Shown here piece after piece: positions 11,950 through 22,128 of a DNA stretch of 24,756 nt (positions are counted from its first letter, which is position 1; each line of letters begins with the position of its first letter). This stretch comes from a virus. The stretch is from positions 1 to 24,756 of the IMG/VR virus record IMGVR_UViG_3300046471_000131, one strand, 5' to 3'. The notes under the pieces are model-generated. The model had not been told where the DNA came from. It saw nothing but the letters and a program-made list of their open reading frames with translations, and did not search any database. A program made the position numbers and the translations under genes.

Positions 11950-13395
11950 ATGAATGATAGCGCAAGCCAACTATTGACAAATCTAGTTAAAGTACATAGA
12001 GAAATTGAAGAAAAAGACTTTGAAAAAATCTGGAAGGAGGGAATTTTTGTTTTCGACTCCAACGTTCTCCTGGATTTATATCGCCTTCCCGAGTCTGCAA
12101 GCAAAGACCTCCTGAAAGTTCTCAAAAATAAAGACTTCACTGATCGCATCTGGATAGGCTTTCAGGTAATGGTGGAATTCCTGAACAATCGCCATGAAGC
12201 AATTAGTGATCAGAAAAATAAATTTGAAGAGGTCAGGAAACATCTTGCGCACTCTATGTCTCAGTATCATGAAACATTCAGCACGCTAACCAACTCCCTT
12301 AAGGGCTTAAAACTAAAGCAGCGCCACTCGCTTATCGACCCAGACAAATACATCAACGAACAGAAAATAAATTCCGGCGTAGAATTCATTGAAGAATTTA
12401 TTGAGCATTTAAACTCCCTTGAAAAAAAACAGTCCGATGTCAATGACAAAGATACGATAAAAAGTATCGTACTCAGTCTTTTCGAGGGCAAGATAGGCCA
12501 AGGCTTCACCAAATCCGAACTTGAAAAGCATTACGAAGCAGGCGAAAAGCGGTATGTAAACAGTATCCCTCCAGGGTATAAAGACAAAGCAAAAACTGGA
12601 TCTTACCTCGTAGACGAACGGGAATTCATTCGCAAGTTTGGCGATCTCATTCTATGGCATGAAATAACACGAAAAGCAAAAGCAGAAAGCTTAAAGTATA
12701 TAGTACTAGTAACTGGCGACGTTAAAGAAGACTGGTGGTATGAAAAACGAGGTAAGAAATTAGGACCCCGGAAGGAGCTACTGAATGAGATCTATCACGC
12801 GGCTCCAGAGTTAGAATTCTTTCACATGTATGACACCTCGAACTTTCTATTACGAGCCAGAGATGCATTCAGCATTAATGTCCAAGAGTCGTCAATCAAG
12901 GAAGCAAAAAACCTCATTGAAAATAGCCGCACAGACAGTTCAAGCAACGATGTAGGCGCAATCTCACTGCAGCAGTTATTGTTAAAAATAAGCGGACACT
13001 TCTCCAACGCAAACTTAAAAATGACCGCAGCCTTCCAGCGCGTACCACCGTTAACCTGTAATGAAAATTTGCTTTATGATGCTTTTTTTGAGTTTTTCTC
13101 CATCTGTTTAACATACGGAAAAGGCAGCAGCATTATTGCAGGTGCTGGTACTCAAAATGGACAGCTAACGGTGCGTATCCAAAATAAATTACCTGATGAG
13201 CCTGCGTATGATTTGCTTCGTTCTGGCGAAAATGACGAGATGTTTAGTTCCAACTTATCAAGGATTCGACTAAGCCTTACAAAAGAAGGAATAACAAGTA
13301 CAGTTAAGTATGCCGCCCAGAAATTCTTGGTGGATGTCACTTTTTCCACCGAAAAACTTCTCAAGCAAATCACCACGCTTGCTGAGGACGTATAA
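11950..13395 (+). CDS. PIN-like nuclease fused to an unknown C-terminal domain, rex position
   Basis: This 481-aa protein has an N-terminal PIN-like domain (about residues 30-300) of the long type with a helical insert. Candidate metal-binding acids are D36 (FVFDSN), E76 (VMVEFLNN), D232 (FGDLILW) and D257/D261 (VTGDVKED). PIN proteins are usually metal-dependent RNases. The C-terminal part (about 335-470) is separate; its ENLLYDAFFEFFS helix and two later beta-rich stretches recall a degraded GHKL/histidine-kinase ATPase fold, without the usual GxGxG box. The gene is strongly AT-rich against its neighbours. It starts 33 bp after cI with no promoter evident between, so it should be expressed with cI in the lysogen, as lambda rexAB is. 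Defence against other phages is an inference. Confidence 0.82.
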   Translation: MNDSASQLLTNLVKVHREIEEKDFEKIWKEGIFVFDSNVLLDLYRLPESASKDLLKVLKNKDFTDRIWIGFQVMVEFLNNRHEAISDQKNKFEEVRKHLAHSMSQYHETFSTLTNSLKGLKLKQRHSLIDPDKYINEQKINSGVEFIEEFIEHLNSLEKKQSDVNDKDTIKSIVLSLFEGKIGQGFTKSELEKHYEAGEKRYVNSIPPGYKDKAKTGSYLVDEREFIRKFGDLILWHEITRKAKAESLKYIVLVTGDVKEDWWYEKRGKKLGPRKELLNEIYHAAPELEFFHMYDTSNFLLRARDAFSINVQESSIKEAKNLIENSRTDSSSNDVGAISLQQLLLKISGHFSNANLKMTAAFQRVPPLTCNENLLYDAFFEFFSICLTYGKGSSIIAGAGTQNGQLTVRIQNKLPDEPAYDLLRSGENDEMFSSNLSRIRLSLTKEGITSTVKYAAQKFLVDVTFSTEKLLKQITTLAEDV

Positions 13396-13435
13396 GGCAA
13401 TATTCGGAATCTAATATCGATAGATTGCCCTTTTT
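13396..13435 (+). terminator. Candidate intrinsic terminator of the cI-PIN operon
   Basis: GGCAAT and ATTGCC (13396-13401 / 13424-13429) enclose a competing AATCTA / TAGATT hairpin and are followed by CTTTTT. It begins at the base after the PIN gene stop. The stem is weak, but the location is right. Confidence 0.5.
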
Positions 13436-13473
13436 CCTAACACACCTCGCCTCGTCCTCAGAGCGCTTGAAAC

Positions 13474-13495
13474 GGCGGCGATTCTGATCGCCGCC
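13474..13495. repeat. Perfect 9-bp hairpin upstream of pL
   Basis: GGCGGCGAT and ATCGCCGCC are separated by TCTG. There is no T-run on either side. It lies about 80 bp before the pL operators in otherwise empty DNA (13396-13557) and may back up the preceding terminator or bind a protein. Confidence 0.6.
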
Positions 13496-13557
13496 AGCCC
13501 TCCATTTATAGAATTCTCACGATTTTCCCCACGAGCAACCATGAGCAACGCAAAAAA

Positions 13558-13600
13558 TATGGGTATTCCCATTGACGATAAATATGGGATTGCCTATATT
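13558..13600 (+). promoter_or_regulatory. pL-like early promoter with two repressor operators
   Basis: The -35 is TTGACG (13572-13577), the spacer is 17 bp and the -10 is TATATT (13595-13600), a strong sigma-70 match. Operator copies TATGGGTATTCCCATT (13558-13573) and TATGGGATTGCCTATA (13583-13598) overlap the -35 and the spacer/-10, spaced 25 bp. They match the cI-proximal operators, so this is the second repressor-controlled promoter, driving the rightward early operon from about 13607. Confidence 0.87.
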
Positions 13601-13643
13601 GCGCTTAAGCCGTGCACCGCGGACCTAGCAGCGAAAGCCGCGC

Positions 13644-13691
13644 CGCTCTTTAAAAGTCAGGAATCTTCGCGGATCGATCCCCGGAAACGGG
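13644..13691 (+). promoter_or_regulatory. Candidate nut site: boxA and boxB-like hairpin
   Basis: CGCTCTTTA (13644-13652) is an exact match to the boxA consensus bound by NusB/S10. About 27 nt later CCCG-GAAA-CGGG (13680-13691) forms a hairpin with a GNRA tetraloop, the loop fold of lambda boxB. It lies some 40-85 nt into the pL transcript, as nutL does. The boxA-boxB gap is longer than in lambda. Confidence 0.55.
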
Positions 13692-13722
13692 CATAGCGCG
13701 AAACACAAACTTCGATCTCCAT

Positions 13723-13901
13723 GCAGGCTCTGGAACCTGCCGTCCTCCCCATATGGGAGGACGCCAAACCATGCAAGCCAGCCGGCGAAGAACACCGAAC
13801 ACGAAATGTGTGACGCCGGCCAGGTGGGGAAACCGCGGCGCCGAGCATGGGGCGGACAGCAACACGGAATTTTTCACTGATGCACCTGGTGACGGGTGCA
13901 T
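13723..13901. repeat. Hairpins in the early leader (13723-13740, 13741-13763, 13880-13901)
   Basis: Three inverted repeats lie in the untranslated leader before the first clear gene. GCAGG/CCTGC is immediately followed by a perfect 9-bp CGTCCTCCC/GGGAGGACG hairpin, and ATGCACC/GGTGCAT lies further on. The 3' arm of the second contains a GGGAGGA that would be the ribosome site for an ATG at 13771, so that start is sequestered when the stem forms. Leader structures of this kind can control transcription elongation or translation. Apart from these and the nut-like site, 13601-13926 holds no convincing gene. Confidence 0.55.
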
Positions 13902-13926
13902 TGGGAAAACAACCGGAGGCAGCAGC

Positions 13927-14199
13927 ATGCAAATCAACACGCAGAAAACAGTGCAGGTCGACGTGACTGAACTGCACCTCTACATCAAGGTGCGCGATGG
14001 ATTCGCCGCAGGTCTGAAAGATGCTCAGGGCGAGGAAGTCGGCAGCTATGAAGGCTACGTGCCGGACTTCTTCCCCGGCCAGCACTACGGCGACTACTTG
14101 ATCCTGAACATCGATCTGGAAACCGGGCAGATCAAGAACTGGAAGAAGCCTGGCGCCGCTGACATTGAGAAGATGCTCGCCCAAGGCGAAGACGACTGA
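13927..14199 (+). CDS. Small unknown early protein
   Basis: This 90-aa acidic protein is of a type common in Pseudomonas phages but without a known role. It begins MQINTQKTVQVDV. A beta-rich N-terminal half (VTELHLYIKVRDGF), a GQHYGDYLILNID block and a short C-terminal helix are visible. A GGAGG lies 7 nt before the ATG at 13927. The frame is open back to 13753, and an ATG at 13771 would add 52 residues beginning MQASRRRTPNTK. That ATG's ribosome site lies in a hairpin arm, so a longer form is possible. It is the first gene of the pL operon. Confidence 0.8.
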   Translation: MQINTQKTVQVDVTELHLYIKVRDGFAAGLKDAQGEEVGSYEGYVPDFFPGQHYGDYLILNIDLETGQIKNWKKPGAADIEKMLAQGEDD

Positions 14200-14253
14200 A
14201 CAACCAGCGCCACGACAGCCCTGTCGTTAACTTCCCGATCCTCTCTATGAGAG

Positions 14254-14372
14254 CGCATAGGGGTGTGATCTGAATCCTGCCGCCAAGCAGCACAGCTTCT
14301 ATCCAGCGAGATTCGGAGGAATGAACTCGGGTCGATGCAGGGATTGCGCCTGCCTGATCACACCCCGATGCG
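14254..14372 (+). ncRNA. Candidate structured RNA element
   Basis: A long inverted repeat pairs 14254-14270 with 14356-14372: CGCAT and ATGCG, one A-G mismatch, then an 11-bp perfect GGGGTGTGATC / GATCACACCCC. Inside it AATCCTGC (14273-14280) pairs with GCAGGGATT (14337-14345, one bulge). The enclosed segment offers two hairpins, AAGC-N6-GCTT (14285-14298) and CGAG-A-TTC / GAA-CTCG (14307-14329), the second holding GGAGGA in its loop. This layout suggests a folded cis-regulator or small RNA. The rest of the gene-free stretch 14200-14555 has a CGACAG/CTGTCG hairpin (14212-14227) and a GCCGG/CCGGC hairpin (14467-14484), with no other gene that I can support. Confidence 0.45.
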
Positions 14373-14392
14373 GACGAAACTGCGGCCTATAA
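14270..14392 (+). CDS. Possible cysteine-rich micro-protein
   Basis: The frame through the structured element encodes NPAAKQHSFYPARFGG, then a five-cysteine segment (CRDCAC...CGRNC) before a stop at 14390-14392. C-x2-C-x-C-x5-C-x3-C is a plausible metal-binding pattern. The only starts are a CTG at 14270, 7 nt after AGGGG, or an ATG at 14321 whose GGAGGA lies too close. The residue make-up looks protein-like, but the start problem and the RNA fold on the same bases keep confidence low. Confidence 0.35.
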   Translation: MNPAAKQHSFYPARFGGMNSGRCRDCACLITPRCGRNCGL

Positions 14393-14555
14393 CCGCCCAC
14401 CTGCATCAATCCCAGAATCGGTTGTCATCGAGCGCTGGTGAACTGAACACGGCCGTGGAACTCGGCGCCGGAAACGTAACCGGCAGCTCCGCAGCTTGAG
14501 ATGCTCCTGGCGGCATGGTCAAATAAGTAATGGCCTTTTGCTACGGTAATCTCAG

Positions 14556-14984
14556 TTGAAACAGAATCGCGGAATAATCATATTTTTCTCGGCAATGACT
14601 TTGCTCTTTATCTTGGTACAGGTATGGCATGCGAAGACTGCTCCGGAAGAGAAAATTCAGGAGCGGGAACGCCAGCTCAAAGGGCTCGCACTCATAATGG
14701 GCGCCCAGTCCGGAAAAGTATCTGACGATTCAACTCGCGTCGATTCTGTGACCTACAACGATGAGGTCATGCGTATCTCTTACACACTCACAAAACTTAC
14801 GAAAGACGAAATCGATTCTGATGAATTCACCAAGGACGCAAAAGCGCTTGCAGCTTCTGCATTCTGTAATGAAAAAGGTTTAGGGCAATTCGTGAAATCG
14901 GGTCTTTCCATTGACCTCCTCTACAAAGATTCAACCAGTTCACCGGTAGTCGAGTTTCAGATAGGCAAATCCGACTGCCTCTGA
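14556..14984 (+). CDS. Membrane-anchored or exported unknown protein
   Basis: This 142-aa protein begins at a TTG; an in-frame stop lies 6 nt upstream, so nothing longer is possible. A short basic N-terminus (MKQNR) and a hydrophobic segment (about residues 7-22) make a signal anchor, so the rest should be periplasmic. C104 and C141 in a C-terminal module ending in GKSDC resemble small periplasmic proteins with a closing disulfide. The ribosome site is weak. Composition is more AT-rich than the neighbours. It is followed by a strong terminator and may be an independent lysogenic-conversion gene. A surface or periplasmic exclusion role is possible but unsupported. Confidence 0.72.
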   Translation: MKQNRGIIIFFSAMTLLFILVQVWHAKTAPEEKIQERERQLKGLALIMGAQSGKVSDDSTRVDSVTYNDEVMRISYTLTKLTKDEIDSDEFTKDAKALAASAFCNEKGLGQFVKSGLSIDLLYKDSTSSPVVEFQIGKSDCL

Positions 14985-14997
14985 TGCCTGCCCCCTG

Positions 14998-15025
14998 AAG
15001 CCCGCCCCTCACGCGGGCTTTTTTC
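14998..15025 (+). terminator. Strong intrinsic terminator inside the rightward operon
   Basis: AAGCCCGC and GCGGGCTT pair around CCCTCAC and are followed by TTTTC. It is 14 bp after the anchored protein gene. Downstream recombination genes must be reached by antitermination or by another promoter. Confidence 0.85.
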
Positions 15026-15134
15026 TGCGCGTCGCACCGCTACGAGCCCGCGCAGCTAGTCATCAATAGCCCGACCAATCCCGAATGCACTCTCCTCCGC
15101 GCCCAACGGCAACCAGCGGAGCGGATGAGTGCAT
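15025..15134. repeat. Consecutive hairpins before the small-gene cluster
   Basis: CTGCGCG/CGCGCAG (15025-15031 / 15049-15055) is followed by a nested structure, ATGCACTC/GAGTGCAT (15085-15092 / 15127-15134) enclosing CTCCGC/GCGGAG (15095-15100 / 15116-15121). It ends 43 nt before the next start codon. It may be a leader structure; no T-run follows. Confidence 0.6.
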
Positions 15135-15177
15135 CCGAGTTTTGTTGGATCAACACCCCGCCACTCTGGAGACGACC

Positions 15178-15582
15178 ATGTCAGCTCTACGCAAGCTCAT
15201 CCCGGAAGACGACTTTCTCGATACGGAGGCAGGTCAAGACTGGCTGACCGAGTCGGTCGACGACCTGCTTTATCGGCGCCACGTCGAGGCACCAAATCCG
15301 GTAGGCCGAAGCAAGGTTCTGGTCAACGCCGACCACTTACCGGAGGCGCTGGCGGATCACATGGCTGCGAACCCAGATCCAGATCGGTACATCGAGAAGA
15401 TTTTGATCGAGCTGATCAGGCGCGCCGATAGTGGGATTCTGCACACCTGGGCCATCGAAGCCGTCGGCGGTGATCCGCAAATTATCCGGTCACTCGCCGG
15501 CGACCTGGTCGCGGTGCACGCCAACGAATACCGCGATTTCAAGCGCGAAAGCGATCGCGTCGAGCGGGAGTGCGGGTTTTGA
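15178..15582 (+). CDS. Unknown early protein
   Basis: This 134-aa acidic, mostly helical protein is not recognised. It starts MSALRKLIPEDDFLDTEAGQ and has a WAIEAVGGDPQIIRSLAGD helix pair in the C-terminal half. The ATG at 15178 has a GGAG 6 nt upstream. The longer frame from 15085 would run through the hairpin region and lacks a ribosome site. It is the first of seven tightly packed genes leading through RecT and the YqaJ nuclease, and overlaps the next by 4 bp. Confidence 0.75.
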   Translation: MSALRKLIPEDDFLDTEAGQDWLTESVDDLLYRRHVEAPNPVGRSKVLVNADHLPEALADHMAANPDPDRYIEKILIELIRRADSGILHTWAIEAVGGDPQIIRSLAGDLVAVHANEYRDFKRESDRVERECGF

Positions 15583-21270: not shown

Positions 21271-22128
21271 ATGTCGCCTTATAAAATCTTAGGGACGACC
21301 GTCGTGAGCTTCTCCGGCGGACGTACCAGCGCCTACATGCTGCGCCAAGTGCTGGACAACAACAATGACTTGAGCGATCTGGTCGTCACCTTCGCCAACA
21401 CCGGGAAAGAGCACCCAGCCACCCTTGAGTTTGTTCGGGAATGCGCCGAGCGCTGGGCCGTGCCGATCGTCTGGCTTGAATTCAGAAATAGCGAGACCGG
21501 GTTCGAGGTCGTCGACTTCGCGAGCGCAAGTCGCCAGGGCGAGCCGTTTGAGGAGCTAATCCGCAAACGGAAGTATCTGCCCAACCCGGTGACCAGATTC
21601 TGCACCATCGACCTGAAGATCCGGATCATCCACAAATACTTGCGCAGTCTGGGCCTTTCGACCGAAGAGAGCCCGGTGGACATGATGACCGGCATCCGCG
21701 CCGACGAGCCCCGCCGCGTCTTCAAGATTCGGCACCGAAAGAGCACCAGCGAAAGTAAGTGGGCCACCATGGTAATGCCGCTGGCTGATTCTGGCGTAGG
21801 CGTTCAGGTCGTGACGGACTTCTGGGCCAGCCAGCAATTCGACCTGATGCTGCCGACGATCAATGGCCGAACGCTTGAAGGCAACTGCGACCTTTGCTTT
21901 CTGAAGGGCGCCAAGCAGGTCTATTCGATCATCGCCAGCGACCGCCCCAAGGCTGAATGGTGGGCGCGCATGGAAAGCTCGGTGGTTTCGGGTGGCAAGT
22001 TCACAGGTGACGGTGCCAGATTTCGCAGTGACCGCCCCAGCTACCAGCAGATGCTCGATTACTCCGACACCCAAATCGACATGTTCGCCGACCACGACGA
22101 GGCAATTGACTGCTTCTGCGGAGATTGA
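21271..22128 (+). CDS. PAPS-reductase-like PP-loop enzyme
   Basis: This 285-aa protein carries the PP-loop of adenylyl-using enzymes, SFSGGRTS (residues 13-20), and belongs to the PAPS reductase/DndC-like group widespread in phages. Cysteines at C111 (TRFCTID), C206-x2-C209 (GNCDLC) and C281-x-C283 near the end could hold an iron-sulfur cluster. The PP-loop activates a substrate with ATP. In CysH it acts on sulfate adenylyl compounds and in DndC on sulfur transfer to DNA. The true substrate here is unknown. GAGG lies 5 nt before the ATG. Being close to a C5 methyltransferase, a part in DNA modification is plausible but inferred. Confidence 0.82.
   Translation: MSPYKILGTTVVSFSGGRTSAYMLRQVLDNNNDLSDLVVTFANTGKEHPATLEFVRECAERWAVPIVWLEFRNSETGFEVVDFASASRQGEPFEELIRKRKYLPNPVTRFCTIDLKIRIIHKYLRSLGLSTEESPVDMMTGIRADEPRRVFKIRHRKSTSESKWATMVMPLADSGVGVQVVTDFWASQQFDLMLPTINGRTLEGNCDLCFLKGAKQVYSIIASDRPKAEWWARMESSVVSGGKFTGDGARFRSDRPSYQQMLDYSDTQIDMFADHDEAIDCFCGD

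Follow-up and report, generated by a model that had tools for sequence, protein, structure and literature searches.

A phage RNA element that combines a conserved frame with interchangeable folded inserts

Bacterial Y RNAs (YrlA) are built as a long end-to-end stem capped by a tRNA-like domain, and the put RNAs of phage HK022, which act in antitermination, are early-operon RNAs with two hairpins and are not known to carry exchangeable inserts. Among RNAs that act on defence systems, three reports describe neutralisation of AbiF in trans by its RNA (PMC12373285), the use of RNA mimics by phages against CRISPR (PMC10651486), and RNA mimicry by phages against ToxIN (PMC5086642). Here we describe a locus in a 24,756-nucleotide stretch of viral DNA (IMG/VR record IMGVR_UViG_3300046471_000131; "the window" denotes this whole stretch) that can be compared with each of these. 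Its frame stem is topped by a tRNA-like insert as in YrlA, but there is no gathering-level Rfam match and no Ro/Rsr binding site was recognised, and the likeness to put RNAs, made by description only, consists of an early-operon phage RNA with two hairpins. Racr RNAs and pseudo-ToxI are similar in being small phage RNAs thought to mimic host RNA; unlike them, the locus has no CRISPR-repeat or ToxI similarity detectable with Rfam models at gathering level (including CRISPR-DR). A motif similar to abiF RNA (RF03085) lies in the same island of one related locus (L221) but is absent from the window. Rfam 15 holds no matching family for the window and none at gathering level for 20 further loci; relaxed thresholds yielded tRNA and Burkholderiales-2 in a Bordetella phage (L007) and otherwise only sub-threshold matches. 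Searches of the open-licence literature on phage RNAs and RNA mimicry found no description of such an RNA, so that, as far as could be checked, this family of a frame with inserts is undescribed.

A conserved frame around an exchangeable interior

The initial annotation had drawn attention to a 17-nt inverted repeat over 119 nt, and this repeat is present with arms at 14254-14270 and 14356-14372, a spacing of 85 nt, and a single mismatch (A14259 versus G14367). Arms of 17 nt with at most one mismatch inside 119 nt occur at 2 positions in the whole window and at none in three mononucleotide shuffles. The 119 nt fold with -48.3 kcal/mol (z = -2.71), a value equalled by 1 of 200 dinucleotide shuffles, in agreement with the earlier judgement that the pairing exceeds chance. 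The site was also correctly said not to be an intrinsic terminator, having no T-run and no entry in the terminator listing. Judged by sequence comparison, however, the structured RNA is larger than the 119 nt first noticed and extends from about 14200, just past a stop codon, to about 14407.

A blastn search with 14200-14520 returned 16 phage records with partial matches, 14 of them named Pseudomonas; seven matching records were inspected, and the Pseudomonas ones share a conserved frame with a differing interior. The homologues are two-part, with a frame (hairpin 1, a linker TAACTGCCCGA, hairpin 2, and the stem base GCATCGG/CCGATGC) and an exchangeable insert of about 30 to 200 nt. On the plus strand of the window, the 5' end of the frame (ACAACCAGCGCC, 14200-14211) directly follows the TGA closing the upstream ORF (13927-14199) and leads into hairpin 1 (ACGACA[GCCC]TGTCGT, 14212-14227), which is supported by covariation with 97% of cells paired and arm pairs such as ACGACA/TGTCGT, ACGTCA/TGACGT, and ACGGCA/TGCCGT. 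The linker (14228-14238, here TAACTTCCCGA) is conserved across the frame alignment, an invariance that is partly built in since the linker was in the search patterns. Hairpin 2 (CTCTC[TAT]GAGAG, 14241-14253) is one of several exchangeable types. The 5' strand of the closing stem (14254-14270) begins with the frame base CGCATAGG and continues as an insert-specific portion, and both it and the 3' strand (14356-14372) show compensatory changes, for the 5' strand across 41 insert clusters. The 3' module GACGAAACTGCGGCCTATAACCGCCCACCTGCATC (14373-14407) includes a small hairpin GCGG/CCGC, and its GCATC is a possible alternative partner of the GATGC of the closing stem; a GCATC within 70 nt downstream was found in 76 of 118 elements versus 8 of 118 after shuffling.

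Scans with the frame pattern found at least 120 stretches in IMG/VR and 61 in GTDB genomes, the latter mostly Pseudomonas with a few chance matches. From at least 188 frame matches, 166 distinct and sufficiently long elements remained among the matches listed, and 153 of these 166 have a strong closing stem versus 8 in the shuffled set of 166. The 13 without one include at least four that resemble chance matches (L141, L151, L176, and L178). The inserts fall into about 40 sequence clusters among the matches listed (44 at one threshold, two of them unreliable), a count that hangs on a single greedy identity threshold, with some clusters impure (C00 includes members resembling C02 and C03) and one mis-parsed (C34, L086). 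One cluster, C43 from Asanoa (L171), was a chance match and was removed before the closing-stem, upstream-ORF, and modularity counts. C23 and C37 have no fixed-register arms and were left out of the stem analysis, and the resulting 41-cluster table retains two misregistered rows (C28 and C29). The frame base GCATCGG/CCGATGC hardly varies among these 41 representatives, and insert-stem pairs 9 to 18 show four to six standard pair types each, with 35 to 41 of 41 paired. Under maximised pairing, stem arms form a mean of 9.4 of 12 pairs with their own partner (at least 9 in 36 of 43) versus 5.8 of 12 when crossed between clusters (at least 9 in 371 of 1806, or 20.5%), a cross-cluster value that is inflated by a GTGATCTG-type arm common to 17 of 42 clusters. 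Hairpins 1 and 2 covary as well, with 88.8% of cells paired and a covariation score reached by 0 of 500 shuffles; the number of pair types is not above that of shuffles (412 of 500). Among 11 stretches inspected, some weaker matches within the genus keep hairpin 2 and the inserts but differ in the 5' part (TTCCCTGACAGCCGGAAAGACGGCCCGA), and one locus (L217) carries two frames in tandem.

This comparison shows the region to be a non-coding structured RNA in which a conserved frame holds an insert that can be exchanged. The strong covariation of the closing stem, hairpins 1 and 2, and the insert helices supports the suggestion of an independent phage RNA, one of two readings originally offered. 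Its structure is well supported, and its function is what we infer further below.

The tRNA-like insert of the window

The insert of the window (cluster C09, 14263-14362) matches its covariance model R2 with 112 bits. Comparison with homologues confirms that the two hairpins noticed earlier inside the repeat are real, with a pairing slightly different from the one first drawn, and backs three in all: a 5' hairpin with D-arm-like placement (CTGC[CGCCAA]GCAG, 14277-14290), a middle hairpin (GATTCG[GAGGAATGAACT]CGGGTC, 14310-14333) that holds the previously noted GGAGGA and AUG and in which 4 of 6 pairs changed on both sides, and a 3' hairpin with T-arm-like placement (GCAGG[GATTGCG]CCTGC, 14337-14353) that adjoins the 3' strand of the closing stem. 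The additional helix proposed between AATCCTGC and GCAGGGATT did not prove to be a conserved pairing; its bases fall mostly in the stems and loops of the 5' and 3' hairpins. The window copy is slightly damaged, with A14259 in the closing stem, a T-T mismatch of T14271 opposite T14355, and a 3'-hairpin loop shortened to GATTGCG, one base less than the consensus GATTGGCA.

An alignment of 18 sequences (A2) supports the closing stem and all three hairpins: 15 of 29 pairs changed on both sides, the covariation was reached by 0 of 500 shuffles, and pairing in register is 97.1% versus 22% to 37% in slides. Model R2 also picks up a large group of inserts of the GCGCAGGCTGATGCGC type (E 2.6e-7 to 0.03), and in the superfamily alignment of 37 distinct rows 22 of 29 pairs changed on both sides. 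The loops of the 5' and 3' hairpins stay complementary while changing (GCCAA/UUGGC, GCUGA/UCAGC, and, in L067, GCCGA/UCGGC), and these loop-loop pairs were absent from the model used for the superfamily alignment. They are paired in 96.6% of cells versus 3% to 48% in slides, with concordant changes from CG to UA and from AU to GC, and double-sided changes are seen in two of the five pairs, over 12 and 13 rows. Shuffles match or exceed the count of such pairs (467 of 500), but in changed cells and covariation score the alignment is above all 500; the changes mainly split two clades and so represent few independent events. By analogy with tRNA-like structures, the insert has a pair of hairpins set against the closing stem whose loops interact, as the covariation of both hairpins and of two of five loop pairs indicates. 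From these alignments, the window insert belongs to a tRNA-like superfamily with closing stem, 5', middle, and 3' hairpins, and loop-loop pairing.

The resemblance to tRNA lies in the hairpins of 4 bp (5') and 5 bp (3'), the latter stacked directly on the closing stem, and in the contact between their loops, and some other inserts carry T-arms of the GGTTCGAATCC type (L009, L113, and L170). Unlike a tRNA, the insert is predicted to have no free acceptor end or CCA, since its closing stem runs on into the frame so that it is fused end-on to the long frame stem; it has five loop-loop base pairs, and its middle arm is not an anticodon arm. Searches with the tRNA model (RF00005) gave no gathering-level match in the window and none at E <= 5 in 13400-15200, and ARAGORN found no tRNA gene in L001, which covers the site. 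Over 11 loci, ARAGORN reported one defective, nearly complete tRNA-like gene inside the insert of L078 (6783-6854, minus strand). Of 27 clusters scored, 10 have a T-arm-like hairpin next to the closing stem, versus about 5 expected from shuffled interiors, and we do not claim tRNA likeness as general to all inserts. The middle loop, GAG(G/C)AANGAAC, is exposed and largely conserved in the cluster of the window.

The insert pattern was found in 30 IMG/VR stretches and in 26 distinct contexts in all collected sequences, with one locus (L193) identical to the window at the insert. Among 298 Pseudomonas genomes, R2 matches 8, and a DNA search with the insert hits 11 at E <= 0.01, four of them as short fragments. 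In three loci (L256, L259, and L260) the insert lies outside the frame defined by covariance model R1 and is closed by other stems, for example GGTGTTGATG/CATCAACACC.

Distribution, genomic context, and the abiF-like motif

Model R1 matches 75 of 298 Pseudomonas genomes. In a class sample it matches 2 of 274 genomes, one being the Pseudomonas genome used as centre, and the only match outside Pseudomonas (1 of 273) is weak (E = 6e-4); plasmids gave no match. In the window, the element occupies the gap between a 90-aa ORF that belongs to no known family and stops at 14199 and the ORF 14556-14984. A cI-like repressor and a PIN_8 protein are encoded upstream in the same orientation, and RecT- and RecE/YqaJ-like proteins downstream. 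This position behind a cI-like gene and ahead of recT/recE-like genes resembles the left early operon of lambda. The PIN_8-domain protein (11950-13395), beside the same-strand cI-like repressor, is a candidate exclusion gene without a PADLOC match. Among seven window proteins, PADLOC matched only SspD and BrxP, both on a PAPS-reductase-like protein (21271-22128) whose SspD match is to the Ssp phosphorothioation system.

For 140 of 143 elements, GTTAAC is preceded by an ORF of 50 codons or more on the same strand whose end lies no more than 60 nt away, with 27 to 29 nt the commonest distance, and these 140 upstream ORFs form 50 unrelated groups. The group of the window's upstream gene (13 members) is paired with 12 insert clusters, at least two hairpin-2 types occur in 14 of 20 multi-member insert clusters, and the window and L023 have a common downstream ORF with different inserts. 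The inserts therefore travel independently of their neighbours, and this independent exchange suggests a product acting in trans.

Other features were observed in the vicinity. Downstream of the frame in related loci, a conserved Shine-Dalgarno sequence and AUG are followed almost at once by a stop, at codon 2 to 4 in 24 of 26 contexts (ATG TAA, ATG AAG TAG, ATG GAC TAG, ATG AAG CGT TAA, or ATG TGA; L004, L012, L017, L018, L029, L035, L040, L043, L045, L078, L088, L107, and others), an arrangement reminiscent of the lambda bar minigenes. At about 15078-15160, the window holds another probable structured RNA (GAATGCACTC..CTCCGC..CAACGGCAACCAGCGGAG..GAGTGCATC) whose core recurs in 59 distinct contexts in related loci, some with an outer stem GTCAGCACTC/GAGTGCTGAC, and 15122-15137 is a possible terminator-like end. 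The sequence at about 14444-14484 (GAACACGGCNGTGGAACTCNGCGCCGG..ACGTAACCGGC) is common to Bordetella phage L007, where it directly precedes tRNA-Arg.

In L221, an abiF-RNA-like motif scores 27.2 bits against a gathering threshold of 37 (E 0.77 over all families); its loop equals the consensus exactly, and hairpin 2 follows shortly after it in the same non-coding stretch. No Abi_2 gene was recognised among the listed same-strand ORFs within 4 kb, and a whole-genome search found one Abi_2 match on a different contig, with an abiF-like motif upstream. This coincidence is weak on its own, since an Abi_2 gene is found in as many as 66 of 298 Pseudomonas genomes. By comparison of coordinates, 20 of 24 genomes with an abiF-RNA match have it about 200 nt or less from an Abi_2 match. 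Among four IMG/VR records with the exact abiF core, none has an Abi_2 match and three have the core directly behind tRNA-like ends. Besides the prophage RNA island of L221, abiF-like motifs were seen in L228 (G280, contig C8), L249, L250, and L252.

Possible functions of the element

We tentatively regard the inserts as decoys or antitoxin-like mimics that would act in trans against a host RNA- or tRNA-directed defence effector, a reading that we consider possible rather than probable. The element would be transcribed together with the early operon, its frame may stabilise or process the insert, and the insert would bind the effector in trans, with insert diversity reflecting the diversity of such host effectors. 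Our leaning comes from the inserts, which form discrete and exchangeable types with conservation inside each cluster and occur stacked, and from the abiF lead at L221; the recurrence of the window insert without this frame likewise argues for trans action. The lambda-like operon position and the precedent of RNA mimicry by phages also favour this reading. Counting against decoys, the abiF resemblance concerns one locus and stays below the gathering score, no insert reaches gathering level for any Rfam family of tRNAs or known antitoxins (the window insert itself matches no known antitoxin RNA there), tRNA likeness does not extend to all inserts, the window copy is damaged, and the element always lies on the coding strand of the operon with a stop codon just before it, an arrangement that a cis element would account for too. 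Such an operon element, stable and partly tRNA-like, could serve as a processing site (RNase P, RNase III, or a similar enzyme), in protection of mRNA ends, or in counter-termination, and we hold it to be a plausible though doubtful explanation. It would account for the fixed strand and position behind the stop codon in 140 of 143 elements, for the conservation of the frame and 5' hairpins, and for the downstream GATGC/GCATC alternative partners in 76 of 118; the inserts would be exchangeable because any closed fold would serve. However, a generic stem would not need discrete insert clusters whose loops are conserved and whose middle domain is specific, RNAs are stacked in one island and sometimes form tandem frames, as in L217, and the insert recurs in other frames.

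The discrete and exchangeable specificities, together with the exposed middle loop of the window cluster, would also fit a trans-acting RNA whose specificity is set by the insert and which regulates phage or host genes by base pairing or through a global RNA-binding protein; lysogeny control and superinfection immunity are examples of such roles. The lack of linkage between insert and upstream gene across the 140 upstream ORFs speaks against it, and we think it distinctly unlikely. Strong inverted repeats, modular exchange, and GCATC/GATGC boundaries could instead mark a DNA-level element, either a recombination hot spot or a folded single-strand site with the inserts as passengers, but the insert helices contain G-U pairs, the internal hairpins and loop-loop pairs covary, and orientation is fixed relative to the genes, making this very improbable. 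We give next to no credence to the other initial proposal, a cis-acting translation switch for a Cys-rich micro-ORF starting in the middle-hairpin loop: GGAGGA directly precedes the AUG in the window, but the AUG is present in only 11 of 18 aligned homologues (ACG, GCG, or AUA in the other 7), neither GGAGGA nor the reading frame is conserved, and the micro-ORF frame differs between the window and L122 owing to a 1-nt difference in the length of the 3' loop. The pattern named in the initial annotation as refuting the RNA candidate, uncompensated variation in the arms together with a conserved Cys-rich frame, is opposite to that in the homologues.

A broader form of the decoy reading, which we rate as rather unlikely, is that the frame marks a hypervariable RNA cassette site where dozens of unrelated self-closed folds, some of them tRNA-like, would be swapped and would each fit a different host RNA-targeting effector. 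If true, Pseudomonas phages would possess, at the level of RNA, an equivalent of the protein anti-defence islands, exemplified by abiF-RNA-like mimics. The frame is present in about a quarter of the sampled Pseudomonas genomes, yet has no Rfam family, and with its exchangeable folded inserts it amounts to a ready-made natural library of stable RNAs. Should the inserts be cis elements, they would show how early-operon transcripts are processed in these phages; should they be decoys, pull-downs with inserts would identify host defence proteins directly.
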